From positions 1 to 41,528 of the forward strand of contig JAHEJC010000011.1 of NCBI GenBank assembly GCA_024639065.1: 41,528 bases of DNA. The letters are read 5' to 3'. Each line of letters begins with the position of its first letter. Positions within the stretch are counted from its first letter, which is position 1. The notes under the pieces were generated by a model. That model was not told the DNA's origin, searched no databases, and worked only from the letters and a program-made list of their open reading frames with translations. Both the position numbers and the translations under genes were made by a program. Origin of the DNA: Lewinellaceae bacterium (GTDB lineage: Bacteria; Bacteroidota; Bacteroidia; Chitinophagales; Saprospiraceae). This document shows positions 766 through 38,796 of this stretch, one piece after another.

Positions 766-2175
766 TTATTTTAACATGAGCTTTTCGGCATAAACAGTTT
801 TACCTTGACGTGTAATTTGAAGCACATAGATGCCCAAGGGAAGTTCAACCAAATCTAGATAGGTTATATTGTTATTTAACGAGTCGGACATCAGCGACTG
901 ACCGATATAGTTTAGAATATCGATTCGAAAATTTTGGTTGAACTGGTTTGAAGGGTAATCAATCTCCAGGCGTTTACTATCACTTTTCCATTGAATGGAA
1001 AAATCATTTTTATTGAAATTTTTAGTATTTGTAGAAATGGAGTATGTATGTTCCATCCATTCAATACCCCCAGGAAGGAGCAGGTTGTGATCAAAGTCAA
1101 AAAAGGTGGCATGTTCCTGGTGACTGCCTTGATCCCATTGATTCCAGCAAGGTGTTGAAACCCAGCTAGGTTCCCAATAGATTACCCCTCGACCACCTTG
1201 ATCGATCACTTCTTGCGTGAGATCGATCAACCACTTTTTTTGATTCAGAGGCGAAGCGGGTTCATAGTCCGGATGAGTTTCTGAAATAATATTATTGGCA
1301 TTGTCAAAATTATCTGTAGTCCAGATGTAACCGGTCTCAACAATAATAACTTCTTTATCAGGATAAGCTGTTCTTAATCTTCGGATTACTTGTCCGGTTT
1401 CAGGAATGGTGGTTGGCTTATGCCAGGCCCAATAATAAGACATACCGATCAAATCAAAATCTGAAACTCCATTTTGTATGAATTCATTGATCCACCATTC
1501 GGATTTTGAAGGGTCAGCCACATGCAGCATAACTTGGATGGGAATTGCCGATTCTTGCGATACTGTTCTTACCGCTTGGATGGCGCGATTAAACAAGTGA
1601 GCATTTCGTGACCATTCTAAGGTCCAGGTCTGATTATCTTCAGGTGAAAGTAAAATACCCCGATTGGTCTCATTGCCTATTTGGACCATTTCAGGAAGTA
1701 AATCATTTTGGTATAGATGAGTGAGTGTTTTGTAAATGTATTGATAAAGCGAATCACCCAGCAAATCAACCTCCTCGACTACTGATAACCAGGCAGACGG
1801 TACTAACTGTTTGGATGGATCCGCCCAATTGTCGGAGAGGTGGAAATCGAGTAAGACTTGCATACCTGCATTCTTGGAACGACGAATGCTCTTCATGACA
1901 TCTTCAAGATCACTGTACCGATTTCCTTCGTTCAATTGATCATACCAAGAAGGTGTGTGCCACAATCTCAATCGAGTGAGATTACAACCATGATCTTGGT
2001 AAATTGAATAAACATCTTTCTCAATCCCATTTTCTTTATATTGAGCACTACAATCCTCCATTTCATTGACATAGGATTGATCGGCGCCAAAAAAGAAATC
2101 TTGTCCATTGACACCAGTATAACTAATAACAAAGAGGATGCAAAGCGTATATTGAATAATCGATCGACTCTGCAT
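766..2175 (-). CDS. GH53 arabinogalactan endo-beta-1,4-galactanase, T9SS-exported
   Basis: The 469-residue protein has a signal peptide (about 1-24) followed by the typical GH53 opening FFFGADQSYVNEME and NLTRLRLWHTPSW. The TIM barrel covers about 26-390. The acid/base Glu is E169 in VQIGNETNRG and the nucleophile is E280 in VIIVETGY, both in the normal GH53 contexts. GH53 enzymes cut internal beta-1,4-galactosyl bonds of pectic galactan and type I arabinogalactan. The last ~75 residues form a T9SS type A sorting domain (LPLGIYVLQI...YAEKLMLK), so the enzyme is predicted to cross the outer membrane through T9SS and be cell-attached or released. It is the third gene of a susC-susD-gh53 run, 9 bp after susD, which makes galactan the likely target of the locus. 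Confidence 0.93.
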   Translation of the reverse strand: MQSRSIIQYTLCILFVISYTGVNGQDFFFGADQSYVNEMEDCSAQYKENGIEKDVYSIYQDHGCNLTRLRLWHTPSWYDQLNEGNRYSDLEDVMKSIRRSKNAGMQVLLDFHLSDNWADPSKQLVPSAWLSVVEEVDLLGDSLYQYIYKTLTHLYQNDLLPEMVQIGNETNRGILLSPEDNQTWTLEWSRNAHLFNRAIQAVRTVSQESAIPIQVMLHVADPSKSEWWINEFIQNGVSDFDLIGMSYYWAWHKPTTIPETGQVIRRLRTAYPDKEVIIVETGYIWTTDNFDNANNIISETHPDYEPASPLNQKKWLIDLTQEVIDQGGRGVIYWEPSWVSTPCWNQWDQGSHQEHATFFDFDHNLLLPGGIEWMEHTYSISTNTKNFNKNDFSIQWKSDSKRLEIDYPSNQFNQNFRIDILNYIGQSLMSDSLNNNITYLDLVELPLGIYVLQITRQGKTVYAEKLMLK

Positions 2176-2184
2176 GGTATTGAT

Positions 2185-4380
2185 TTAATAACCTGAATTC
2201 TGTTTTAGGTTAGGATTAGCACCTAGATCTGGGGAAGGAATAGGATATACATCTCGGAAACTTTCTACAGATCTTCCTTCCATAACACCGCCCTTCCAGG
2301 CCCATAGATAATCGGTTTGACTAAATTTATCAAAACGTACTAAGTCCGTCCTGCGGTGACATTCCCAATATAACTCTCTTGCCCGTTCTTCGATTAAAAG
2401 GTTTAAATTAAGATCTTCTGGTTTGATATTACCTCCGGATCCTTTATACGCCCGTTGTCTTACCACGTTAAAATAATCAGCAGCCTGAGTCATATCACCA
2501 CCACTTCGGACAATGGCTTCAGCCGCCATTAAATAAAAGTCTGCTAATCTAAACATGGGAAAATCAGTATCCGGGAAATCAGTATCAGATCCTTGTGTTC
2601 CATCTGAAGTCACATTTTTAAATTTTTGAATGGCATATCCTTCGGTAAATATGGTTACATCAGTAATATCTAAAGTTTGACCAGCACTATAGAAAATGCC
2701 CCGGTTGTCAAAACTGGTGCTATTGATCGCAAACGTATAATCTGGTTGATTCAGGTATAAAAGGATTTCAACAGAACCTCCTTCCGCCAGGATAATATCA
2801 TCTCCACCGATGTCCAAGATTCCATCAGCACCATTATCACCCAGGTTGATATCCCAGGAGTCATTGGCTCTAAACTTGATAGGCCCGGGTTGAACATCCA
2901 AGTTGGCAACTAAAGCGTTTTTCTCTGAGTCCCATTCCATATCAATATCCGTTTCCCAGCCATTTGCAGTGGCATCACCCAAAACACCCCACGAAGCAGG
3001 TGTCAAAGTGTACGTACTATTGGACAAGTTTACCTCAATCTTATATAATCCTGCTGAAGGAACACGGATAGTATCGCCATTCATTTCTAGTGTCCCGTCT
3101 CCTCCGTTGTCACCGAACCGGAGAGCAAAAGAAGGAATCTGGGTAATTAAGAAGCCCAGCTGATTTTCAGGAAAATATCGATATCCTTCAAAGATCCGGT
3201 TACTGGTCGGTGAAGAGATGGTATTGGTCTCCACACTAACATCCCAGCCTTGATAGGCTCCAGGTACATATAGTTTGGGGTATTTTCGGGTATTTCCTTC
3301 AACGCGTTCAAGTATTACTCCACCGAGTTCACCAAATAATTCCACTATTTGCTTAGTGGTGCGAACACCCCCCCAACCGCTCACTACTCCAGATTCGGAT
3401 GGATCCATGCTGCCTCCGATACCTGCTCTGATGATAAAAGTCATTCCACCCCAAGTACGTGTGTTTACCCCATCGAAAGTTACTGGGAATATCATTTCGT
3501 TTGAATTATGGTTATCAGCAAGAAATAGATTTTGATATTCCGGTTCCATACTATAACCGGCGTTAATAATTTTTTCACAGTATTCAAGACACTCTCCGAA
3601 TTTGCTGCTACCTGTATAGGCTTCAGCGTTGAGGTATAATTTTGCCAGTAGCGCCCATACTGCACCCTGATCCGCCCGACCATATTCATTCGATCTGGCG
3701 GATTGAATGGTACCTTCAATTTCCTTCAGTTCAGCTTCTAAATAATTGAATAAATCAGGTGCTTGAATTTGTTCTGGGAAAAACGATCCTACCACATCAT
3801 TTTCAGTTACAAATGGAACATTTCTGAACAGGTCCAAGGCATGCCAATAACTTAATGCCCTCAGAAATCTGGCTTCAGCACGAAAACCCGCGATATCATT
3901 GGCTAAGTTTTGGTCTACTCCCCGGGCATCCAATTTATCCTGAGTCGTTTCACGGATAAATTCATTACATAAAGCAATTTGATAAAAAATACGGCTGTAA
4001 AAAGCAAATATGAAACCATCTTCAGCACTCCAGTCTTGTTCATGGAAATCTTTAATCGTTTGATCATTCCATCCCACCAGTGCCTCATCGGTGGAGAGTT
4101 CCTGATGATACCAAAAGCCTCTCAAGTATTGACCAAATCCTTCGTCAATACCTTCAATATCTGATTGCCCAGCAGGTCCCTGTTGGCCACTCACTGCAAG
4201 TCCGGCATATAGCTTTGCGAGCACGGCACGATAAGCACTCGGATCGTCATACACAACCCCTGAAGTAACTACATCTTCATCCAGTGGAATGGTGTCAAGA
4301 TCCTTGACACATGAATATTGAAATGTAAGAAAGAGTGCGAAGCAAATAAATTGAATACTGAATTTAATATATTTTTTCAT
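2185..4380 (-). CDS. SusD/RagB glycan-binding lipoprotein with two embedded SusE/SusF-like modules
   Basis: This 731-residue protein is well above the usual 500-600 for SusD. The N-terminal half is normal SusD: a lipoprotein signal with Cys at residue 24, a helical body (AGFRAEARFLRALSYWHALDLFRNVPF at about 164-190) and RADQGAVWALLAKLYLNAEAY. The C-terminal part is also normal (FRLADFYLMAAEAIVRSGG at about 610-628, LIEERARELYWECHRRTDLVRF, YPIPSPDLGANPNLKQNSGY). Between them, about residues 366-553, lie two modules of SusE/SusF type: one starting YVPGAYQGWD with GDNGGDGTL, and one starting WGVLGDATANGWETD with IKFRANDSWDINLGDNGADG. They match the repeats of the secreted protein at 7649-9481. 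The gene lies 10 bp after susC. SusD proteins cap the SusC pore and hand over oligosaccharides; the embedded modules probably add binding surface. Confidence 0.9.
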   Translation of the reverse strand: MKKYIKFSIQFICFALFLTFQYSCVKDLDTIPLDEDVVTSGVVYDDPSAYRAVLAKLYAGLAVSGQQGPAGQSDIEGIDEGFGQYLRGFWYHQELSTDEALVGWNDQTIKDFHEQDWSAEDGFIFAFYSRIFYQIALCNEFIRETTQDKLDARGVDQNLANDIAGFRAEARFLRALSYWHALDLFRNVPFVTENDVVGSFFPEQIQAPDLFNYLEAELKEIEGTIQSARSNEYGRADQGAVWALLAKLYLNAEAYTGSSKFGECLEYCEKIINAGYSMEPEYQNLFLADNHNSNEMIFPVTFDGVNTRTWGGMTFIIRAGIGGSMDPSESGVVSGWGGVRTTKQIVELFGELGGVILERVEGNTRKYPKLYVPGAYQGWDVSVETNTISSPTSNRIFEGYRYFPENQLGFLITQIPSFALRFGDNGGDGTLEMNGDTIRVPSAGLYKIEVNLSNSTYTLTPASWGVLGDATANGWETDIDMEWDSEKNALVANLDVQPGPIKFRANDSWDINLGDNGADGILDIGGDDIILAEGGSVEILLYLNQPDYTFAINSTSFDNRGIFYSAGQTLDITDVTIFTEGYAIQKFKNVTSDGTQGSDTDFPDTDFPMFRLADFYLMAAEAIVRSGGDMTQAADYFNVVRQRAYKGSGGNIKPEDLNLNLLIEERARELYWECHRRTDLVRFDKFSQTDYLWAWKGGVMEGRSVESFRDVYPIPSPDLGANPNLKQNSGY

Positions 4381-4390
4381 GGCTTATTTC

Positions 4391-7339
4391 TTAGAATTCT
4401 ACATTTAAACCAAATAGTATAGTTCTTGGTCTTGGATAAATATTATTATCGATGCCTCCAAATATTTCCGGATCTAACCCATCATATTTTGTAATTAAAA
4501 ATGGATTTTGCACAGTAGCATAAATGCGGGTAAATTTACCAATCAGGTTATCAAAATTGTATCCTGCTGTGATATGATCAAATCTTAAGAAATCCGCTTT
4601 TTTTACATAATGATCGCTGAAAGTAAGGTTTCCTTGTTCAACCACATTATTATCAACAGCTGCCTGGTTGATGTTCCATAAAACACCGGTCGTTCCATAA
4701 ATTCGATTCAACCAACCCATATCTGTCTGCACATTGTTGTATACATAATTACCTACATTGGCTCTACCGGCGAAGGTTATATCAAAGTTCGAAATTTCTA
4801 CTCGGCCAGACAATCCAAATACCAAGTCCGCTGCAGGTTTTTCAAAACGATATTTATCTTCACCATTTACCATACCATCTGCATTCCGATCTACAAATTC
4901 GCCTTCAATGATGTTGCCTGCTTCATCATAAACTTGTTCAAATACATAAAATGATCTGGGTGCAAATCCAACACTGTGGATTTGAATATTACTACCTACA
5001 CCTCCCGCAATTCCACCGGTCAAAATACCTTCGTAGGTAGGATCATCTATCGCCGTAAGTTTGGTGATTTCATTTTTATTATAAGCTACATTAGCTCCAA
5101 GTTCAACCGCCACCTTAGCAGTCTTAACGGGTGTTCCAAAAAGAGCAAGCTCGACGCCTTGATTTTCCATGTTACCAATATTGGTTGTAATGAAATTGGT
5201 CAGATTAGTACCAGCCGGAACAGGAATCCGGTTGAGTAGATCTTTGGTGTCTCGCTGATAAAAGTCTAATGACCCGTTCAGTCTATCTTGGATAATTGAA
5301 AAATCCAAGCCTACATTTATAGTGGCGGTTTCTTCCCAGCGAATATTTCCATCGTATCCATTGGGACGTAAGGTCGTAACAAACTCATCTCCAAATTGGT
5401 AACGGGCATTTTCGAAACCCAACTGATATCTTGCCAGGTAGGCATAAAAATCTCCGATATCTTGTTGGCCGGTGATTCCCCAGCCAGCCCGTAATTTTAA
5501 TTTGTTTAAATAGTCTTTTTCGTTATCAATCAATTTAATGGCTAAAGCAGCAGCTGGGAACAGTCCCCAGCGGTTATCTGGCGAGAACCTGGAAGTACCA
5601 TCGCGTCTAAGTGTCAAAGTCAATAAATATCGTTCACTAAACGTATAATTGATTCGCCCATAGGTAGATAGGAGATAGTATTCCGCGGGGTCCGAGCCGA
5701 CAGTCGTTTCCGAAGGTGTACCTGCAGCATCGGAATTTCTGAAAGTATTGTCTACTTCAAAATGTTGCCAGGAATAACCAGCCATCAAATCCAAATCATG
5801 GTCTCCAAAAGTCTTTTTATAGTTGAGATAAAACTCAAGTAAGGTATTTTTTTTGGTCTGACTATATTCGTTGTTGACTCCCCCTCCATTAATCAGATCA
5901 AAAGCGAAAGAAGCTGTGGTTGGAACTACCACTGTTCCCTCTCCTTTGGAATAATCATAAGCAAGATTTAGATTTAATCGGAGTGCAGGGATGAAGCTCA
6001 AGCGATAATCAGCGGATGCATTAGCAATGTACCGATTCACTGTGCTATTGTCCTCCCGTAGATCAATCAGTGCCAAAGGATTGGTGGGAGCCAGCGCATT
6101 GGGATTTCCATTGGGAATGGTCCAGGTCCAATAACCTCCATAAGGATTACCCGGATCTAAAACAGGATGGGTAGGATCAAAACTCAGTGAATTACCTATT
6201 GCTCCTCGATCTGCAAAATGATTTTTAGTACGCATAGCTTTTAGACCTAGATTGACTTGAAGGGTGTTGTCAATAAATCCTGGATTTACATTGATACCAG
6301 CGGTAAGCCGATTAAAATTATCGGTCATCAGAATTCCACTTTTGTCAGAGAATCCCAAAGAGGCTCTAAATGGAATTTCTTTAAGTGCGCCTGCAACATA
6401 CAGGTTATGATCATGACCAATGGCAGTTTCATATATTTCATCCTGCCAATCGGTATTGGCATCGCCTACTACCTCTCGTGCAGGGTGATCTTCAGCATAT
6501 TGTTGATTTAGGGCTTCTCTGAATTCTGCAGCTGATAGGACATCCACTCGATTATATGGCGTGCCAAAAGATATATTTCCATTGTAACCCACACTTACTC
6601 GATCACCTACGCTACCTTTTTTTGTGGTGATCAAGATTACTCCGCCAGCCGCTCGATTGCCATAAATCGCTGATGCCGATGCATCTTTGAGTACGGTGAA
6701 AGACTCGATATCATTCGGATTAATGATGTTCAAGGGATTTCTGCTTCCGGAGATACCTCCATTATCGATGGGAACACCATCAATAACGATCAGTGGATCA
6801 TTGGATGCACCCAGCGACGATTCTCCCCGAATCCTGATAGCAGATCCGGCACCAGGACTTCCATCCGTAGTTATGGATACCCCGGGTACTTTGCCTGCCA
6901 ATAATTCCTGAGCGCCCGTAATGGCTCCTTTATTAAAATCTTCGCTGGTTACTGACTGAATGGAACCAGTGGCATCTTCCCTTTCAATTGTACCATATCC
7001 AACCACAATCACTTCCTCTAATATTTGACCAGCCCTTAAAACGAGGTTATATTCATTACTTTCGGTAAGCTGAACTTCCTGGGTATTATAACCAGTATAA
7101 CTTATAACGATGGTAGCTGCTTCTGCTGGGATATCCAAGGAAAAGGTTCCATCTATATCCGTGGCAGTCCCCGCATCAGACCCTTTAATGAGCACATAAG
7201 CACCAATTAAAGGTTCGTTGGTTTCAGCGTCGGAAATAACACCAGAAATCGTTCTTTGTGAAAACGTGATGACTATGGAAAGGAAAAGAAACAAAAGGGT
7301 CAGTGTTTTCTTTCTGCTTATAATTTTAAAATATCTCAT
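4391..7339 (-). CDS. SusC/RagA-family TonB-dependent outer-membrane transporter
   Basis: The 982-residue protein has a signal peptide (cleavage near residue 27), a carboxypeptidase-regulatory-like beta-sandwich (about 29-103, ISGVISDAETNEPLIGAYVLIKG), the SusC signature and TonB-box segment EEVIVVGYGTIER (108-120), and a plug domain (about 121-240, with GVPIDNGG and VLKDASASAIYGNRAAGG). A 22-strand-type barrel follows to the C-terminal NNIYPRPRTILFGLNVEF. It imports oligosaccharides across the outer membrane using TonB energy. It heads the minus-strand operon with susD and GH53, so the predicted cargo is galacto-oligosaccharide from beta-1,4-galactan. The coding region looks intact. The start is taken at the ATG that gives a complete signal peptide. 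Confidence 0.95.
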   Translation of the reverse strand: MRYFKIISRKKTLTLLFLFLSIVITFSQRTISGVISDAETNEPLIGAYVLIKGSDAGTATDIDGTFSLDIPAEAATIVISYTGYNTQEVQLTESNEYNLVLRAGQILEEVIVVGYGTIEREDATGSIQSVTSEDFNKGAITGAQELLAGKVPGVSITTDGSPGAGSAIRIRGESSLGASNDPLIVIDGVPIDNGGISGSRNPLNIINPNDIESFTVLKDASASAIYGNRAAGGVILITTKKGSVGDRVSVGYNGNISFGTPYNRVDVLSAAEFREALNQQYAEDHPAREVVGDANTDWQDEIYETAIGHDHNLYVAGALKEIPFRASLGFSDKSGILMTDNFNRLTAGINVNPGFIDNTLQVNLGLKAMRTKNHFADRGAIGNSLSFDPTHPVLDPGNPYGGYWTWTIPNGNPNALAPTNPLALIDLREDNSTVNRYIANASADYRLSFIPALRLNLNLAYDYSKGEGTVVVPTTASFAFDLINGGGVNNEYSQTKKNTLLEFYLNYKKTFGDHDLDLMAGYSWQHFEVDNTFRNSDAAGTPSETTVGSDPAEYYLLSTYGRINYTFSERYLLTLTLRRDGTSRFSPDNRWGLFPAAALAIKLIDNEKDYLNKLKLRAGWGITGQQDIGDFYAYLARYQLGFENARYQFGDEFVTTLRPNGYDGNIRWEETATINVGLDFSIIQDRLNGSLDFYQRDTKDLLNRIPVPAGTNLTNFITTNIGNMENQGVELALFGTPVKTAKVAVELGANVAYNKNEITKLTAIDDPTYEGILTGGIAGGVGSNIQIHSVGFAPRSFYVFEQVYDEAGNIIEGEFVDRNADGMVNGEDKYRFEKPAADLVFGLSGRVEISNFDITFAGRANVGNYVYNNVQTDMGWLNRIYGTTGVLWNINQAAVDNNVVEQGNLTFSDHYVKKADFLRFDHITAGYNFDNLIGKFTRIYATVQNPFLITKYDGLDPEIFGGIDNNIYPRPRTILFGLNVEF

Positions 7340-7648
7340 TGGTTAGGATAAAGTTTCTGAATTAGAATTAACTAAAAAATCGTCCATAAAAATTACTTAA
7401 ATTATCTGTCTGCTTTAATCACTATGCTTTTTGGCATCAATCGGTATGTCTAAATTTATTAATTAATATTTAATATAATATGTAAAGCTATGTAAATCAA
7501 TAATGTATTTAGATGGAAAACTTATTGTATATTTAACACTAAATTACAACAAATTTAATTAATAATAATTTAAAATTAGAATAATAATCTCTACCTTGGT
7601 AGGCCTATTTTACTCATTTTTATAACGAAATAAAAAACTATTTGTCAG
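7340..7648. promoter_or_regulatory. Divergent control region between susC and the SusE/F-module gene
   Basis: This 309-bp AT-rich stretch must hold promoters for both directions. On the minus strand TAAATTTG (7550-7557) fits the Bacteroidota -7 consensus TAnnTTTG for susC, but I see no convincing -33 element. Near the plus-strand gene there is a dyad CTACC-TT-GGTAG (7591-7602) overlapping an 8-bp perfect palindrome TAGGCCTA (7600-7607), a possible operator. No SusR-like or hybrid two-component regulator gene is seen in this window, so the controlling protein is unknown. No other coding sequence is apparent here. Confidence 0.3.
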
Positions 7649-9481
7649 ATGAATTCAAGGATTTTTTCTTACTTATTTTTCAGCTTATTTACAGTTACCG
7701 TGTTCGGACAAATTGAATCGGTAGGTTTAATTGGTTCAGCTACACCGTTTGGTTGGGATGCAGATACTAATATGATCAAAGTCGATACGATTCCACATAT
7801 GTGGACTATGACGATTACATTGACTGATGGTGCCGCAAAGTTCAGAGCTAATGGCAATTGGGACGTAAACTGGGGAGCTACTGATTTTCCTTCCGGAATA
7901 GGTACTCAGGGAGGTCCGGATATTCCTGTTTTTGCCGGAGATTACATTATAACGTTTAATGATTCTACTGGTGCATATAATTTTGCGGTCCAATCTCCTA
8001 TGGGTATTATTGGAGATGCCACCGCTAATGGTTGGGATGAAGATACCAATATGTGGGAAGACTCCAATGGTGTATTCTTCATAACTATTGATTTAACCAA
8101 CAATAAAGTGAAATTCAGATTGAATGATATGTGGAATGTACAGGATTCTGCTGGAAATGAAATTTCCACCAATTGGGGAGGTGAAATGTTTCCCATGGAC
8201 ACGGCTACGCTTAATGGTCCTGATATTGGAATACCTAAAGCAGGCACCTATTTTGTTACATTCGATACATCGTCTTTGATCTACAATTTTAAAGAAATCA
8301 TCGCATTTGATTCAGTAATGATTATAGGTGATGCTACTGCAGGTGGCTGGGAAATGGGTACGCTCATGACCCAAGATGCCAGTAATCCAGATATATGGAA
8401 ACTATCGACTTCCTTGATTGAAGGAGGTGCTCAGTTCACGGCAAACGGGGGATCGCTGATTTGGGGTGGTTCAGATTTTCCAGAAGGAACTGCAGTTGTG
8501 GATGGGGATACGATACCTGTGGCTGCCGGCGATTATCAAATCGAATTGAATACCGAATCCGGGGAGTACAAGTTTTTGAAAATCGAGATTTATGAATCGA
8601 TTGGTATAATTGGATCGGCTACAGTTAATGGATGGGAAGGAGATGACATTGACCTAGAACGAGATGCTGCGGATTCTTCTAGCTGGAGTTTGCGTATTGA
8701 ATTATTGGATGGAGAAGCAAAATTCAGAGCTAATAATGATTGGGAAGTAGCAAACTGGGGAGGAGGCGATTTTCCAACTGGGGTAGCTACTTTAAATGGA
8801 CCAAACATACCCATAACTGCCGGTGAATACCTGATAAGTTTTAATAGTATTACTGGGGCATATAATTTTGAATTAATTGTAGAATATGATGCCATTTCGC
8901 TGGTAGGTAGATCAGGACCTTTTGGTGACTGGCCCGGTGATGATTCTTCAAGAGACCTATTTATGAGTGTTAGTCCCGATGATCCACAATCCTGGTCCGC
9001 CGAAGAAGTTACCTTGACCACATGGAGTGACTTCAGTGACGGAGGTGTTAAATTTAGAGCTGATACCTCCTGGACTATTAATTGGGGAGCCGCTGATTTT
9101 CCAGCTGGAACAGGAACACAAGATGGTGCTAACATTGAATGCATTGGCGGAACCTATAGTGTTTCTTTTAATTCTGCAACCGGTGAATATCTTTTTGGTG
9201 CACCTAGTTCCACTCATGAAATTCTTAGACCGTCTGCTATCAAATTATTTCCTAATCCGGCATATACCAGAATCAACCTGGATATATCTGAGTTAGGAGA
9301 CCTCAGTGGAGATGTGCAACTCAATGTTATGGATATGAATGGGAAACTAGTTAAGAGAGAAAAACGAACGGCTCAGTCCATTATGAGTATAAATGTTTCT
9401 CAACTGGAAACAGGTAATTATCTAATACAAGTCATAGGAGATGGGTATCTATTTGGAAAGAAATTTAGTATTGTAAGATAA
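7649..9481 (+). CDS. T9SS-exported protein with five tandem SusE/SusF-like modules
   Basis: This 610-residue protein has a signal peptide (about 1-20, no lipobox) followed by five repeats at about residues 22-113, 117-215, 221-311, 317-409 and 414-517. Each opens with a version of IIGDATANGWDEDT, has a central VKFRANDDW..NWG..DFP strand pair, then GP(D/N)IP, and closes with AG(D/E)Y.ISFN..TGAYNF. This is the SusE/SusF starch-binding-protein pattern, also found twice inside the neighbouring SusD. A T9SS type A sorting domain (about 528-610, LFPNPAYTRINLDI...LETGNYLIQV) ends the protein. SusE and SusF are normally outer-membrane lipoproteins, so export by T9SS is a different route to the surface. 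It diverges from susC across a shared control region and is probably co-regulated as a multivalent glycan binder. The ligand is not known; galactan is an inference from GH53. Confidence 0.88.
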   Translation: MNSRIFSYLFFSLFTVTVFGQIESVGLIGSATPFGWDADTNMIKVDTIPHMWTMTITLTDGAAKFRANGNWDVNWGATDFPSGIGTQGGPDIPVFAGDYIITFNDSTGAYNFAVQSPMGIIGDATANGWDEDTNMWEDSNGVFFITIDLTNNKVKFRLNDMWNVQDSAGNEISTNWGGEMFPMDTATLNGPDIGIPKAGTYFVTFDTSSLIYNFKEIIAFDSVMIIGDATAGGWEMGTLMTQDASNPDIWKLSTSLIEGGAQFTANGGSLIWGGSDFPEGTAVVDGDTIPVAAGDYQIELNTESGEYKFLKIEIYESIGIIGSATVNGWEGDDIDLERDAADSSSWSLRIELLDGEAKFRANNDWEVANWGGGDFPTGVATLNGPNIPITAGEYLISFNSITGAYNFELIVEYDAISLVGRSGPFGDWPGDDSSRDLFMSVSPDDPQSWSAEEVTLTTWSDFSDGGVKFRADTSWTINWGAADFPAGTGTQDGANIECIGGTYSVSFNSATGEYLFGAPSSTHEILRPSAIKLFPNPAYTRINLDISELGDLSGDVQLNVMDMNGKLVKREKRTAQSIMSINVSQLETGNYLIQVIGDGYLFGKKFSIVR

Positions 9482-22749: not shown

Positions 22750-23008
22750 CCACAGGTTTAAGAACCTGTGGCCATCTTCGAAACGGTAATAGGCAGCGTA
22801 GAATCTATATCCTACGGTTGATTGTCAAAACATTAACTGATGGCCATGGGATCTACATCCTGGGATTGATGTAAAAGAACCGGTAAGATAAAAATGTGAC
22901 GATCTCGGATTATTTACGATATGGGTTAATCCACAGGTTAAAGAACCTGTGGCTATCTTCGACACAGTAACCCGCAGCGTAGCAATCCGCAGGTTAAAGA
23001 ACCTGTGG
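22750..23008. repeat. REP hairpin array, left of the RAYT gene
   Basis: Two hairpin types recur. Type A: arm CCACAGGTT, loop AAAG, arm AACCTGTGG, at 22750-22771 (loop TAAG), 22931-22952 and 22987-23008 (CCGCAGG variant). Type B: GTAGGATCTATATCCTAC-like, at 22798-22815 (one arm mismatch) and a degenerate core at 22848-22860. A conserved linker (CTATCTTCGAAACG, then TAAACGGCAGCG in good copies) follows type A. The pattern is that of REP/BIME elements mobilised by RAYT transposases. Confidence 0.85.
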
Positions 23009-23066
23009 CTATCTTCGAAACGTTAAACGGTTGATTTGTAAGGAACATTTATTAATATTAACGTGG

Positions 23067-23624
23067 ATGAAAAGAATATATGTTCCAAAAGCAGCATATT
23101 TAATTACGACAAACCCAAAATGGAGGATAAATTATTTCGATGAAGATGTTCTTGCTGCAATCTTCATTGAAACAACCAGAACTTCCATAAAATTGAAGCA
23201 GGGTTTTTTAATTGCATATAAAGTCAATCCAGAACATGTGCACCTGATTATTCAAGTAGGAATAGAATTTAATATTTCTCAGGTCATGCATTCAATAAAA
23301 CGAGTAAGTTCCGACAGAATAAATCAAATTCTTACATTTAATCGAGATCCTCATCTCTATACAAATTTTGAGTGGAGTAAAGATCTTCTTCTTTTTAAAA
23401 AGAGATTTTTATCCAAATACGGAGAGGAAAATCAACATGAATATCCGCACTTTCAATGGAATAGAAGTTTCCATGACCTATTAATCAGAACCAAACATGA
23501 TTTAATTGCCAGAATTAAATATTTGGAGAACCAACATATTAAACACGAGTTAACAGAAAACAAATGGTTATATGTTTGCAACCAATTACCGCATGATCTC
23601 AATTTTATTGGTGGGAAACGATAG
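23067..23624 (+). CDS. REP-associated tyrosine transposase (RAYT, Y1/IS200-like HUH enzyme)
   Basis: This 185-residue protein has the Y1 transposase fold. The HUH metal motif is HVHLII (H57, H59) after NPE, and a helical motif comes later: WNRSFHDLLIRTKHDL (131-146) and IKYLENQHIKHEL (150-162), in which Y152 is the likely nucleophilic tyrosine. RAYTs cut and join single-stranded DNA at REP hairpins and are usually present as one domesticated copy near such repeats. Here hairpins of two types lie immediately on both sides. The frame is open further upstream to a TTG at 23031, but that would run into the repeat region, so I prefer the ATG at 23067. No frameshift or stop is seen, and the key residues are present, so it may be active. 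It is not an insertion sequence with recognisable ends. Confidence 0.85.
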   Translation: MKRIYVPKAAYLITTNPKWRINYFDEDVLAAIFIETTRTSIKLKQGFLIAYKVNPEHVHLIIQVGIEFNISQVMHSIKRVSSDRINQILTFNRDPHLYTNFEWSKDLLLFKKRFLSKYGEENQHEYPHFQWNRSFHDLLIRTKHDLIARIKYLENQHIKHELTENKWLYVCNQLPHDLNFIGGKR

Positions 23625-23633
23625 GGTAGTAAT

Positions 23634-23957
23634 CCGCAGGTTAAAGAACCTTCGAAACCTTAAACGGCAGCGCTGCAATCCACAGGTTAAAGAACCTGCG
23701 ACTATCTTCGAAACGGTAAACGGCAGCGCAGCAATCCACAGGTTAAAGAACCTGTGGCTATCTTCGAAATGTTAAAAGGCAGCGTAGGATCTATATCCTA
23801 CGATTGATTTGTCGGAACCTTTTAATAGCAGTGTGGGATCTACATCCTACGGTTGATTTGGAATCGAAGCGTAAAACGATAGCGCAACAATCCACAGGTT
23901 AAAGAATCTGAGGCTATCTTCGAAACGTGAAACGACAGCGTAGGATCTATATCCTAC
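23634..23957. repeat. REP hairpin array, right of the RAYT gene
   Basis: Type A copies lie at 23634-23650 (truncated: the second arm and the start of the linker are deleted and TTCGAAACC follows directly), 23680-23701 (arm ends CTGCGA), 23736-23757 (perfect) and 23892-23913 (arm AATCTGAGG). Type B copies lie at 23784-23801 (perfect GTAGGATCTATATCCTAC), 23833-23850 (GTGGG variant) and 23940-23957 (perfect). A-linker-B order with AAACGGCAGCG-like linkers repeats. All copies share the orientation of the left array. The last copy ends 24 bp from the susD remnant. Confidence 0.85.
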
Positions 23958-23981: not shown

Positions 23982-24404
23982 TCAATAACAAGGGTTCTGA
24001 ACCAAATTTGGATTAGCGAGAAGCTGATCTTCAGGATTGGCCATAATAAATTACAAGCCGGATCACTGGCTTCTTTTTCCCACCGCCGCATCGGAATATA
24101 CCCCAAACCGAATCAAATCATTGCGGCGATGTCCTTCCATATATAATTCACGCCCCCTTTCTGCTAGCAGTTCTTCCATAGATAATTCAGTCAGATTATC
24201 CAGGCCTGCCCGGGTCTTTATCTGATTGACTAATGTCAAGGCACTTTCTTCATCTCCTGTATGTAACAGTACTTCAGCTTTCATCAGTAAAACATCGGCG
24301 GATCTAACTATTGGAAAATCCTCACTGATATAGCAGTCGCTGCCATCGTGAATAAAATAGGATAACATAGCCTGAAATGAAGCAGCGATTAGAAATTCAA
24401 TCAA
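23982..24404 (-). pseudogene. Decayed susD C-terminal remnant
   Basis: On the minus strand, about 113 codons from 24404 encode an unmistakable SusD C-terminal part: SYFIHDGSDCYISEDFP, VRSADVLLMKAEVLLHTGDE, LLAERGRELYMEGHRRNDLIRFG. The frame is then broken twice. At a run of five T around 24073-24078 it must shift to continue as WEKEASDPA. Near 24035-24040 it must shift again to give PEDQLLANPNLVQNPCY and a stop at 23982-23984, which is the normal SusD ending. The N-terminal ~75% is missing and upstream frames are closed. No susC partner is present. It is the debris of a lost utilisation locus. Confidence 0.85.
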
Positions 24405-35367: not shown

Positions 35368-38300
35368 ATGGATAGAACTAAAATAATTAGTCACCCTCTT
35401 TTTCTATTTACCGTGATTCTATCTGTTTTCTGCTGGGGCTGTGTACAGGCTCAATATAAAATATCATTGGCCGGTGAATGGACAGTAAAATTGGATTCCC
35501 TAGATGCAGGGGAAGCTGAACAATGGCAATTTGATAATCTAGCAGGTACACTTATCGAGTTACCAGCCACCTTAGACGATTTGGGGATCGGTTATCCAAG
35601 CACCTTGAAACCTGCATTGAATAATAATGTTTTGTCAAGTCTAAGCCGGAAACGGGAGTATTACGGAAAAGCATGGTACCAGAAAACCATTTCCATTCCA
35701 GATAATTGGGCGGACAAAGAAATACACCTAAAAATCGAAAGAGTATTATGGCAGTCAAAAGTTTATATTAACGAAAAATTTGCAGGGAGCAGAGAAAGCC
35801 TGATTGGTAGTCATGACTATAATCTTACTGAATTACTTAATCCCGGAGATCATCAGATTACGATAGTCATCGATAATTCAAATAGATATCCATTTATTAA
35901 CGTTTTAGGAAATCGCTATCCTGATGATGAGGACAAAGAAATGGCTCATGCTTACACCAATCATACCCAGATCAAGTGGAATGGAATGCTTGGTGAAATT
36001 TCATTAACAGCAAAGAATGAAAATATTCCGTCAGATCTGCAAATCTTTCCAAATCTTAATACCAAAACAATTGAAATTCAGTTCACTCAGGATCATCCGC
36101 AAACAAAAAGCATAGAATTTCAACTATTGGAAAAGGGTAAGGTATTACATGCTCAAAGAATCGATAACGCAAAAGCGAATGAGGAGCATGTTACTTTTCA
36201 GATTGACCAGCCTGAAAATCTAGAAAACTGGGATGAGTTCAATCCTGTGGTTTATGAAGCACGGCTAATAATTGGAAAAGACACCATCCGTTCTGATTTT
36301 GGTAATCGAAAAATTTCTTATCGACATGGGCAGTTACTAATCAATGGACATCGAATTTATTTAAGAGGAAATTTGGAATGCGTTATATTTCCCTTGAGGG
36401 GAACTCCGCCGATGGAAAAAGAAGGTTGGCAAAAAATATTTAGACAAGCAAAAAATTATGGCTTTAATCACATTCGTTTTCATTCTTGGTGCCCACCAAA
36501 ATCCGCTTTCCAAGTTGCTGATGAAATGGGTGTTTACCTTCAGGTCGAATTACCACATTGGAGTTTAAAGGTGGGTGAAGATGAAGAAACTATAGAATTT
36601 CTTAATAGTGAAGCCGATAAGATTTTAAAAGATTATGGCAATCATCCCTCATTTGTTTTAATGTCTATGGGAAATGAATTGCAGGGAGACATCAATGCTT
36701 TAAATGAAATGGTAGCCAAATTAAAATCGCAGGATAATCGTCACTTATATACAACCACTACTTTTTCATTTCAAGAACCAACGGGCTTAAGACCAGAACC
36801 GGAAGATGAATTTTTTGTAACTCAAAGGACAGAGAAAGGCTGGATTCGCGGACAAGGAATATTTAATGATAAGACCCCTCGTTTTGATGAGGATTATTCG
36901 CAAAATATAGACCATATTGATCTTCCATTGGTCTCTCATGAAATAGGGCAATATTCAGTGTATCCTGATCTTTCCGAAATCCCCAAATATACCGGAGTAC
37001 TTGAACCATTAAATTTTATTGCTATTAAAAATGATTTGCAAAATAAAGGCCTATTGGACCTTGCAGACGATTTTACAAATGCGTCTGGCAAGCTTGCTGC
37101 GATACTGTATAAAGAAGAAATTGAAAGAGCCCTGAAAACACCTGGATTTGATGGTTTCCAGTTGCTGCAGTTGCAGGATTTTCCAGGTCAAGGAACAGCG
37201 CTCGTTGGTTTACTAAATGCATTTTGGGAAACTAAAGGAATAATATCGGGTAAAGCATTCAAGCAATTCAATTCAGAAGTTGTTCCATTAATTCGATTCA
37301 AAAAAGCAGTTTACTCATCTGGTGAATATTTTAGAGCGAAGGTGGAAATCGCCAATTTTTACAAGGATTTTAAGGATAAGAAAGTAATTTGGTTGATTAA
37401 AGATGGTAAGGGAGCCGTCTTGAAAAAAGATTCTGTTTTGGTGAATCTTCCTATTGGGAACAATACAGAAATTGCGTCTATTGATCTACTACTTCAAGTG
37501 GAAAAAGCGGATCAATTGGAAGTGACCGTAATAATCGAAGATACGGATTATAAGAATTCATGGTCCATCTGGGTTTATCCCAAATTGCCAATTGTAGAGC
37601 CAGAAGGGATACTTATAACCACCTCTTTTGAAGAGGCTAACCAGGCGCTGGAGAAAGGAAAAAAGGTCTTGTTAAATCCCAATATTGATGAAATTTCGGG
37701 AGTCAAGGGTAGATTTGTTCCGGTTTTCTGGAGTCCGGTCCATTTTCCTGATCAACCAGGCACGATGGGTTTATTGATAGACAAGGAACATTTAGCGCTG
37801 AAAGATTTTCCCACTTCAAAACATGCTGAATGGAATTGGTGGGATTTATGTATTCATTCAAAATCAGTCATTCTGGATGGTACAGGGATTACGCCTATTG
37901 TCAGGGTGATTGATAATTTTGTAACTAATCGCCGTCTTGCCAATGTTTTTGAAGCCAAAGTAAGCAAGGGATCTTTGTTATTTACGAGTATAGATCTTCA
38001 AAATAATTTGGAGAAAAGGCCGGTTGCCAAACAACTTCTTTTCAGTTTACTTAAGTATATGTCGTCCAATTCTTTCCATCCCTCAAATGAAATGTCGCTT
38101 GAGTTTTTAACGAAATTAAAGACCATCAAGAAGAAGGAATCAGCAGTCATTGGACCAGGAGTCGATTATTTAGCTGATTTCAAACAACAGTTAAATCTGA
38201 AATGGCCGAATAACAAAACAATGAATGTTGTGTTTCATGGGCATAGCGTTCCGGCAGGTTATTTTAAAACTCCCATGGTGAATACACTAGAGGCTTACCC

Positions 38301-38796
38301 TCATTTGTTTCTTCAGTTTCTCAAGAAAAACTATCGTAATGCTGTAATCAATTGCATCATCACAGCCATTGGAGGTGAGCAGTCTGAACAGGGAGTACAA
38401 CGTTTTAAGCAGGATGTACTTAACCTAAAACCAGATTTGCTTTTTATTGATTATGCCTTGAACGATCGGCGCATAGGACTTAAACGGGCTGAGGTTTCCT
38501 GGAGGTCAATGATTAATCAAGCGCTTGCTGCCGAAGTAAAAATTGTTCTTCTTACGCCTACACCTGATTTAAAAGAAAATATATTAAATGAAACTGCTAA
38601 TCTAGCGGGATATGCTGATATGATTCGTAGGCTTGGCAGCGAGTATCAAGTTCCAGTGGTGGATGTATACGACCAATTTAAGGCATTGAAAAGTTCCGGA
38701 ACTGATTTGTTAAAATATATGAGCCAGGAAAATCATCCCAATGAGTTGGGTCATCAAGTTGTTTTATCAGAAATTGTAAGTACGCTTTTTAACTAA
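35368..38796 (+). CDS. GH2-like glycosidase fused to a C-terminal SGNH/GDSL hydrolase domain
   Basis: The 1142-residue protein has a signal peptide (cleavage near VQA-QY, residue 28). A GH2 sugar-binding jelly roll (about 30-215, WYQKTISIPDNW...KVYINEKFAG) and Ig-like domain (about 220-320) precede a TIM barrel (about 321-640). Candidate catalytic glutamates are E437 in MSMGNELQGD (acid/base) and E525 in LVSHEIGQYS (nucleophile). After a linker domain, residues ~945-1142 form an SGNH hydrolase: FHGHSVPAG (S960), AIGGEQS, YALNDRR (N1032) and ENHPNELGH (H1123). The Asp three residues before the catalytic His, usual in this family, is Gln. The SGNH part could deacetylate the same glycan the GH2 part cuts. 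It is 15 bp after the DUF5107 gene and is a paralogue of the next gene, which is incomplete here. Substrate unknown. Confidence 0.85.
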   Translation: MDRTKIISHPLFLFTVILSVFCWGCVQAQYKISLAGEWTVKLDSLDAGEAEQWQFDNLAGTLIELPATLDDLGIGYPSTLKPALNNNVLSSLSRKREYYGKAWYQKTISIPDNWADKEIHLKIERVLWQSKVYINEKFAGSRESLIGSHDYNLTELLNPGDHQITIVIDNSNRYPFINVLGNRYPDDEDKEMAHAYTNHTQIKWNGMLGEISLTAKNENIPSDLQIFPNLNTKTIEIQFTQDHPQTKSIEFQLLEKGKVLHAQRIDNAKANEEHVTFQIDQPENLENWDEFNPVVYEARLIIGKDTIRSDFGNRKISYRHGQLLINGHRIYLRGNLECVIFPLRGTPPMEKEGWQKIFRQAKNYGFNHIRFHSWCPPKSAFQVADEMGVYLQVELPHWSLKVGEDEETIEFLNSEADKILKDYGNHPSFVLMSMGNELQGDINALNEMVAKLKSQDNRHLYTTTTFSFQEPTGLRPEPEDEFFVTQRTEKGWIRGQGIFNDKTPRFDEDYSQNIDHIDLPLVSHEIGQYSVYPDLSEIPKYTGVLEPLNFIAIKNDLQNKGLLDLADDFTNASGKLAAILYKEEIERALKTPGFDGFQLLQLQDFPGQGTALVGLLNAFWETKGIISGKAFKQFNSEVVPLIRFKKAVYSSGEYFRAKVEIANFYKDFKDKKVIWLIKDGKGAVLKKDSVLVNLPIGNNTEIASIDLLLQVEKADQLEVTVIIEDTDYKNSWSIWVYPKLPIVEPEGILITTSFEEANQALEKGKKVLLNPNIDEISGVKGRFVPVFWSPVHFPDQPGTMGLLIDKEHLALKDFPTSKHAEWNWWDLCIHSKSVILDGTGITPIVRVIDNFVTNRRLANVFEAKVSKGSLLFTSIDLQNNLEKRPVAKQLLFSLLKYMSSNSFHPSNEMSLEFLTKLKTIKKKESAVIGPGVDYLADFKQQLNLKWPNNKTMNVVFHGHSVPAGYFKTPMVNTLEAYPHLFLQFLKKNYRNAVINCIITAIGGEQSEQGVQRFKQDVLNLKPDLLFIDYALNDRRIGLKRAEVSWRSMINQALAAEVKIVLLTPTPDLKENILNETANLAGYADMIRRLGSEYQVPVVDVYDQFKALKSSGTDLLKYMSQENHPNELGHQVVLSEIVSTLFN

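Follow-up and report, generated by a model that had tools for sequence, protein, structure and literature searches.

In SusC/D systems, the proteins that bind glycans at the cell surface are described as membrane lipoproteins located together with the transporter. In Bacteroides thetaiotaomicron, SusF and SusE (4FE9, 4FEM, 4FCH) consist of tandem starch-binding modules and are accessory to SusC/D. The protein considered here, which we call the array protein, is encoded in a stretch of 41,528 nucleotides (the window) from a Lewinellaceae bacterium. Its modules have the same fold as those of SusF and SusE, and its predicted binding would give it a comparable accessory role. Unlike those proteins, however, it lacks both the lipid anchor and the N-terminal SusE Ig domain, carries five modules followed by a T9SS tail, and is encoded by a divergent gene. 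The array would work like SusE/SusF but is not a lipoprotein, and so it is not classed as a member of that group. We consider it probable that a SusF-like array for capturing alpha-glucan has moved from a lipid anchor to T9SS export and has replaced SusE. Among open-licence PMC papers, no description was found of a T9SS-exported SusE/F-type array or of a SusD with inserted SusE modules. The features of the array gene are as follows.

7649 to 9481, plus strand: predicted T9SS-exported array protein with five modules, 610 amino acids (Pfam, module profile, AlphaFold)
7649 to 7711, plus strand: signal peptide region, cysteine-free, assigned by eye, with cleavage near ...VFG/Q
7718 to 7984, plus strand: array module 1, W-K-W triad intact (residues 24-112, profile)
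8000 to 8293, plus strand: array module 2, W-K-W triad intact (residues 118-215, profile)
8315 to 8575, plus strand: array module 3, triad lost (W-Q-S; residues 223-309, profile)
8597 to 8872, plus strand: array module 4, W-K-W triad intact (residues 317-408, profile)
8894 to 9196, plus strand: array module 5, the last and longer, triad intact (residues 416-516, profile)
9245 to 9469, plus strand: T9SS type A sorting domain (PF18962, residues 533-607)

This open reading frame had been predicted to hold five repeats, and a profile built from the modules indeed finds five copies of about 90 amino acids each (per-module E about 1e-24 to 1e-35), all five of which are folded in the AlphaFold model. 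A signal peptide without a lipobox had also been proposed. The signal region is free of cysteine, and because the sole cysteine of the protein is residue 498, there is no possible lipobox and the protein cannot be a lipoprotein. The expected C-terminal T9SS domain was recovered above cut-off with both PF18962 (E 8.8e-13, 48.8 bits versus a Pfam cut-off of 27) and TIGR04183 (44 bits versus 23). In Pfam, the array protein has no match at E up to 0.1 to the N-terminal SusE domain (PF14292) or to PF16411, and the SusF_SusE entry likewise does not reach E 0.1; among the comparison proteins, one matches both PF14292 and PF16411 (L041) and another matches PF16411 (L036).

On the other side of a short intergenic region lie genes transcribed in the opposite direction, including susC (4391-7339), from which the array gene is divergent as originally stated.

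7340 to 7648, no strand: intergenic region common to the array gene and susC, with one susC-ward TAnnTTTG box
4391 to 7339, minus strand: susC, TonB-linked outer membrane transporter (TIGR04056)
2185 to 4380, minus strand: susD, lipoprotein of 731 amino acids with two SusE-type modules inserted (NF033071, E 4.5e-124)
3004 to 3258, minus strand: inserted module D1 of SusD, triad lost (SusD residues about 375-459)
2731 to 2994, minus strand: inserted module D2 of SusD, triad intact (SusD residues 463-550)
766 to 2175, minus strand: GH53 gene (PF07745, E 1.1e-92)

The GH53 protein has a borderline tail (PF18962 26.4 bits versus a cut-off of 27; TIGR04183 23.4 versus 23). PDB relatives align to SusD in two stretches, one to about residue 349 and the other from about 557; the modules lie between the two and start 13 residues past the position aligned with W320 of starch SusD. 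In the predicted SusD structure only the insert (about 385-555) is well modeled, and the overall pLDDT is 50; this low-confidence model still matches SusD folds (3jys, Z 16.3; SusD, Z 16.1). The window genome has no second close SusD, the next best scoring 78 bits versus 1330.

The array was modeled by AlphaFold from an alignment of 21 arrays, with a mean pLDDT of 88.1 and a pTM of 0.44, as would suit modules strung like beads. The best Foldseek match of the model is SusF (4fe9, E 7.7e-9). When the modules were compared by VIA-align, SusF also scored highest (Z 12.8, rmsd 3.2, 185 residues), followed by the Sca5-X25 structure 7rpy (Z 10.2, rmsd 12.8, 171 residues), SusE (Z 9.8), and an amylase N/F domain (Z 8.9). 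Searching the PDB with the whole array by phmmer returned nothing useful. With the module profile, the best PDB match by sequence is SGBPdex BT3088 (9SJI, E 5.4e-10), whose deposited name marks it as the surface binder for dextran, an alpha-glucan. The same profile matches 7rpy only weakly (E 0.03), which counts against our preferred explanation.

The Sca5 X25-2/Sas20 modules of Ruminococcus bromii (7RPY) touch maltotriose through a W, a K, and a second W that match residues of the array modules. The published description names W620, K654, and W661 of Sca5-X25 as these contacts (PMC9112005). In the weak 7rpy alignment (E 0.03), the GW, KF, and DxW residues of the array modules align with these three positions. 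Unlike the array, the R. bromii proteins belong to a Gram-positive amylosome assembled via cohesin and dockerin, and there module pairs share one site. Of the 147 modules in 28 arrays, three of which are duplicates, 139 retain the full W-K-W triad; the window array keeps it in modules 1, 2, 4, and 5.

The setting of the array was examined across loci gathered from 60 relatives, 19 longer stretches, and 80 loci found via SusD alignment; with the window, 100 were classified. SusD was compared in 96 loci, 91 of them distinct after duplicates (L067, L073, L085, L116, L124) were dropped. T9SS tails of other arrays were recognized by a profile that was itself built up from this set of loci, and lipoproteins by sequence patterns. 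Four arrangements were found. In the first, a SusD without insert occurs with a SusE or a SusF-like lipoprotein; in the second, an insert-bearing SusD occurs with SusE; in the third, an insert-bearing SusD is accompanied by both SusE and an array (L063, L072, L076, L081); and in the fourth, represented by 21 distinct loci including the window, an insert-bearing SusD is accompanied by an array only. Seven loci, mostly on short contigs, have neither array nor SusE. The array arrangement is recurrent, and in the 21 array-only loci a T9SS array of five or eight modules takes the place that a SusE lipoprotein has elsewhere.

Those SusE lipoproteins, encoded downstream of insert-bearing susD genes (as in L041, L044, and L059), belong to the same module family, accompany the same SusD type, and hold the same locus position in function as the array. 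They differ from it in having two modules and a SusE domain, in being lipoproteins, and in the lineage of their modules. Arrays have five modules each, except for one of six (L063) and one of eight (L031, with its duplicate L073). Among the array-only loci, more than 2 kb beyond susD is available in 20 of the 21 and only 477 bp in the remaining one (L064). Six array genomes (G000, G002, G007, G013, G017, G031) were searched in full with the module profile; in all six, the array and SusD are the only places where modules were detected, and no SusE was found. The same search of comparison genomes G014, G024, and G034 finds modules also in a SusE-sized frame.

SusD lids with two inserted SusE-type modules (2731-3258 in the window) are common among MAGs of Saprospiraceae and Bacteroidales (L050-L129), often next to a free-standing SusE that bears the same pair of modules. 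The insert is present in 82 of the 91 distinct SusDs, but sampling favors such proteins: the 80 loci were found with an insert-containing query and give no estimate of insert frequency. Among 100 relatives, this SusD occurs in 44 genomes, of which 16 have the insert at full length. Modules of this kind also occur in other T9SS proteins. At 7764-12411 of L063, a T9SS alpha-amylase with one module is followed by the six-module T9SS array, and SusE is kept, so that the locus looks like an intermediate state. At 9649-12951 of L039, a T9SS protein of 1100 amino acids combines six related modules with a CBM9-like domain and adjoins another SusC/D along with GH13 genes.

It had been claimed that the SusD bears the same modules as the array. 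Two modules are indeed present in SusD, but a module tree places them elsewhere. This tree rests on few columns, with 79 of its 157 inner branches unresolved. SusD module 1 groups with SusE module 1, and SusD module 2 with most SusE module 2 sequences, as if a SusE pair had been copied into SusD. The array modules instead cluster with the final three modules of five-module lipoproteins (L036-L038) and with the T9SS modules of L039 and L040, a SusF-type grouping whose support of 90 is below the 95 mark. The array and SusD modules would therefore be cousins, and the shared GDATANGW and KFRAN.W signatures appear to mark a common superfamily rather than the same modules.

The state of the triad in the SusD insert differs among the arrangements. 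In loci with SusE only, it is intact in 49 of 50 first modules and 48 of 50 second modules, whereas in array-only loci the corresponding counts are 0 of 21 and 8 of 21. Loci with both SusE and array retain it in 3 of 4 and 4 of 4, and loci with neither visible in 3 of 7 and 5 of 7. The window SusD has lost the triad in D1 and retained it in D2. This pattern suggests that the array took over from an absent SusE and that the SusD-fused modules may have lost their sites in step.

In a SusD tree from which the insert was left out, made by a quick search with SH-aLRT support only, all 21 array-only loci fall in a single clade together with four loci in which neither gene was seen (support 99); the loci that have SusE as well as an array form a separate clade (support 93). 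SusE loss and SusD-module decay are therefore to be counted as one event rather than as independent replicates. An independent-contrast test of the two had no power, with only one or two independent pairs. A change confined to one clade could be a one-branch coincidence, in which the SusD modules decayed independently, after a shift in substrate or in the geometry of SusC/D, and the array is a secreted carbohydrate-binding protein of the usual kind that happens to lie there. We regard this as improbable, because the SusD modules remain intact in the clade with SusE plus array (3/4 and 4/4), as if decay follows SusE loss.

Replacement of SusE by the array, the account we prefer, calls for a route to the cell surface. 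From its signal peptide, the array protein would cross the inner membrane by Sec. Given its tail and the T9SS machinery found in the window genome (PorU, 1152 bits; SprA, 2348 bits), it would then pass the SprA translocon, after which PorU would remove the C-terminal tail and the array would be fixed to a surface glycolipid or released. The tail resembles those of known T9SS type A cargo in both sequence and fold, with VIA-align matches to mirolase (Z 11.5), NucA (Z 10.8), and the RemA C-terminal domain (Z 8.8), as well as to the C-terminal domains of PorZ and PorU. Unlike these cargo proteins, the array carries predicted glycan-binding modules and no enzyme. On the basis of residues and fold, the four W-K-W modules may bind starch or glycogen chains multivalently. 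The array could thereby raise the local concentration of substrate, and of the products that secreted GH13 enzymes make, close to SusC/SusD with its starch-type cradle in the lid.

The resemblance to RemA, a cargo of gliding and adhesion, also raises the prospect that the array is mainly an adhesin, one that attaches cells to particles of starch or glycogen or to the alpha-glucan of other cells and does not feed SusC/D. Variation in repeat number (5, 6, or 8) would suit such a role, as would the want of a membrane anchor to hold the array in the SusC/D complex. Two observations make this interpretation quite unlikely. susCD lies alongside the array in 25 of 25 distinct loci, although SusD was the starting point for most of the search, and array presence tracks SusE loss and SusD-module decay, which points to a function in uptake. 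The original prediction of a multivalent SusE/F-type binder, exported by T9SS and tied to SusC/D, is supported by the conservation of the arrangement in these 25 loci.

Alpha-1,4-glucan is the likeliest ligand of the array, in preference to galactan, and in this the original interpretation needs to be amended. It is favored by the triad, the structural neighbors, the modules fused to amylases, the GH13 and GH65 genes nearby, and the SusD cradle. Modules are fused to an alpha-amylase in two loci (L063, with a T9SS tail, and L040). GH13 or GH65 is found near 8 of the 21 array-only loci, and several array loci have both GH53 and GH13 (L050, L052, L053); these GH labels rest on BLAST against few references. 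Against the alpha-glucan reading, no GH13, GH65, or GH97 was detected in the window open reading frames scanned with Pfam. The window genome does encode GH65 and two GH13 proteins, one with a T9SS tail, on a separate 9.8-kb contig (C209).

For the cradle, we take the sugar contacts of starch SusD (BT3701) to be D73, R81, W98, an aromatic residue at 296 (Y296), and W320, with numbering fixed by alignment to 3ck7 (chain offset 24). The window SusD has D79, R87, W104, W310, and W336 at these positions. D73, R81, and W98 are kept in 91 of 91 distinct loci, the window included, and an aromatic residue occupies the Y296 and W320 positions in 90 of 90 scored SusDs. Conserved SusD contacts have been used likewise for marine alpha-glucan loci (PMC11093988).

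Complicating this assignment, GH53 is the sole glycoside hydrolase adjoining susCD in the window, which counts against the explanation we favor, and is the only GH53 of the genome. The array might accordingly bind beta-1,4-galactan, as in side chains of pectic galactan or arabinogalactan, and serve GH53, with a SusC/D of the starch subfamily importing galacto-oligosaccharides. The association is not confined to the window: this SusD type occurs in 24 of 25 relatives with GH53 (over cut-off) versus 20 of 75 without, and the two are neighbors in 7 of the 25. Twenty GH53 regions from the wider class yielded galactan-type loci, among them GH2-GH53-SusE-SusD-SusC loci from other Bacteroidia (L144, L149), with SusC/D of this same subfamily, and GH2-GH53 fusions (L146, 6963-10322; L160, 7399-10872). 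Beta-1,4-galactan and alpha-1,4-glucan share a coiled shape, which offers one idea for the co-occurrence of GH53 with a starch-type SusD. The B. thetaiotaomicron galactan locus (PMC5238430) resembles the GH2-GH53-SusE-SusD-SusC loci.

D73 is missing from three of the four galactan-type SusDs (L144, L149, and L160; L146 keeps it) but is present in the window SusD, and for this reason galactan was lowered from main ligand to rival. Cradle residues are alike in GH53-only (10) and GH13/65-only (32) loci, and the susC operon of the window has no GH2 among its susCD neighbors. On the SusD tree, GH53 comes and goes (12 changes) and the SusE label changes once, with the array stable; moreover, the structural relatives of known ligand bind alpha-glucans. 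Because the SusE-like modules of GH53/GH2 galactan-type loci retain some W-K-W residues too, the triad does not strictly separate the two ligands. We judge the galactan alternative unlikely overall, although GH53 is a real and recurrent neighbor.

A further expectation is that the array and susC are expressed together, as would fit their conserved divergence and intergenic regions. Among the 25 distinct array loci, 20 have the array divergent from susC and five on the same strand (four with SusE, and L057). Gaps in the 20 divergent loci range from 30 to 429 bp, some of them under-estimated because mechanical ORF starts were used. Of these 20 regions, 8 contain an array-ward TAnnTTTG box and 11 a susC-ward one, compared with 2.3 expected in each direction from base shuffles. 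No array-ward box is present in the window intergenic region, which counts against our preferred explanation. A shared operator or palindrome was also sought in these regions, but no common palindrome emerged beyond the TAnnTTTG excess.

Several other features of the window were noted. At 22754-23755, six copies of AGGTTWAAGAACCT lie in palindrome-like repeats that flank, on both sides, a Y1_Tnp transposase open reading frame (23031-23624; PF01797, E 1.5e-11), an arrangement resembling a REP/RAYT element. A degraded C-terminal remnant of another susD (23985-24404, minus strand; 2.1e-21), its frame broken by TGA and TAA, adjoins an IS200-like transposase gene. Farther along, at 35368-38796, a GH2 N-terminal domain and a GDSL lipase/esterase domain are joined in one protein in a sugar-transporter neighborhood.

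A fuller history can be offered tentatively, although we hold it to be less than likely as a whole. The clade may have rebuilt its starch uptake by first copying SusE modules into the SusD lid, after which a T9SS array displaced SusE and the lid modules lost their sugar sites but were kept as structure, perhaps as a docking surface for the array. If true, glycan capture would here be a secreted and extendable net of five to eight modules rather than a fixed part of a membrane complex. Such a lineage would offer a natural experiment on what SusE and SusF contribute and on whether tethering is needed. Because one array host, Portibacter marinus 10MBP4-2-1 (L053, array at 5117-6892), is listed as a strain and not as a MAG, these ideas may be testable in culture.
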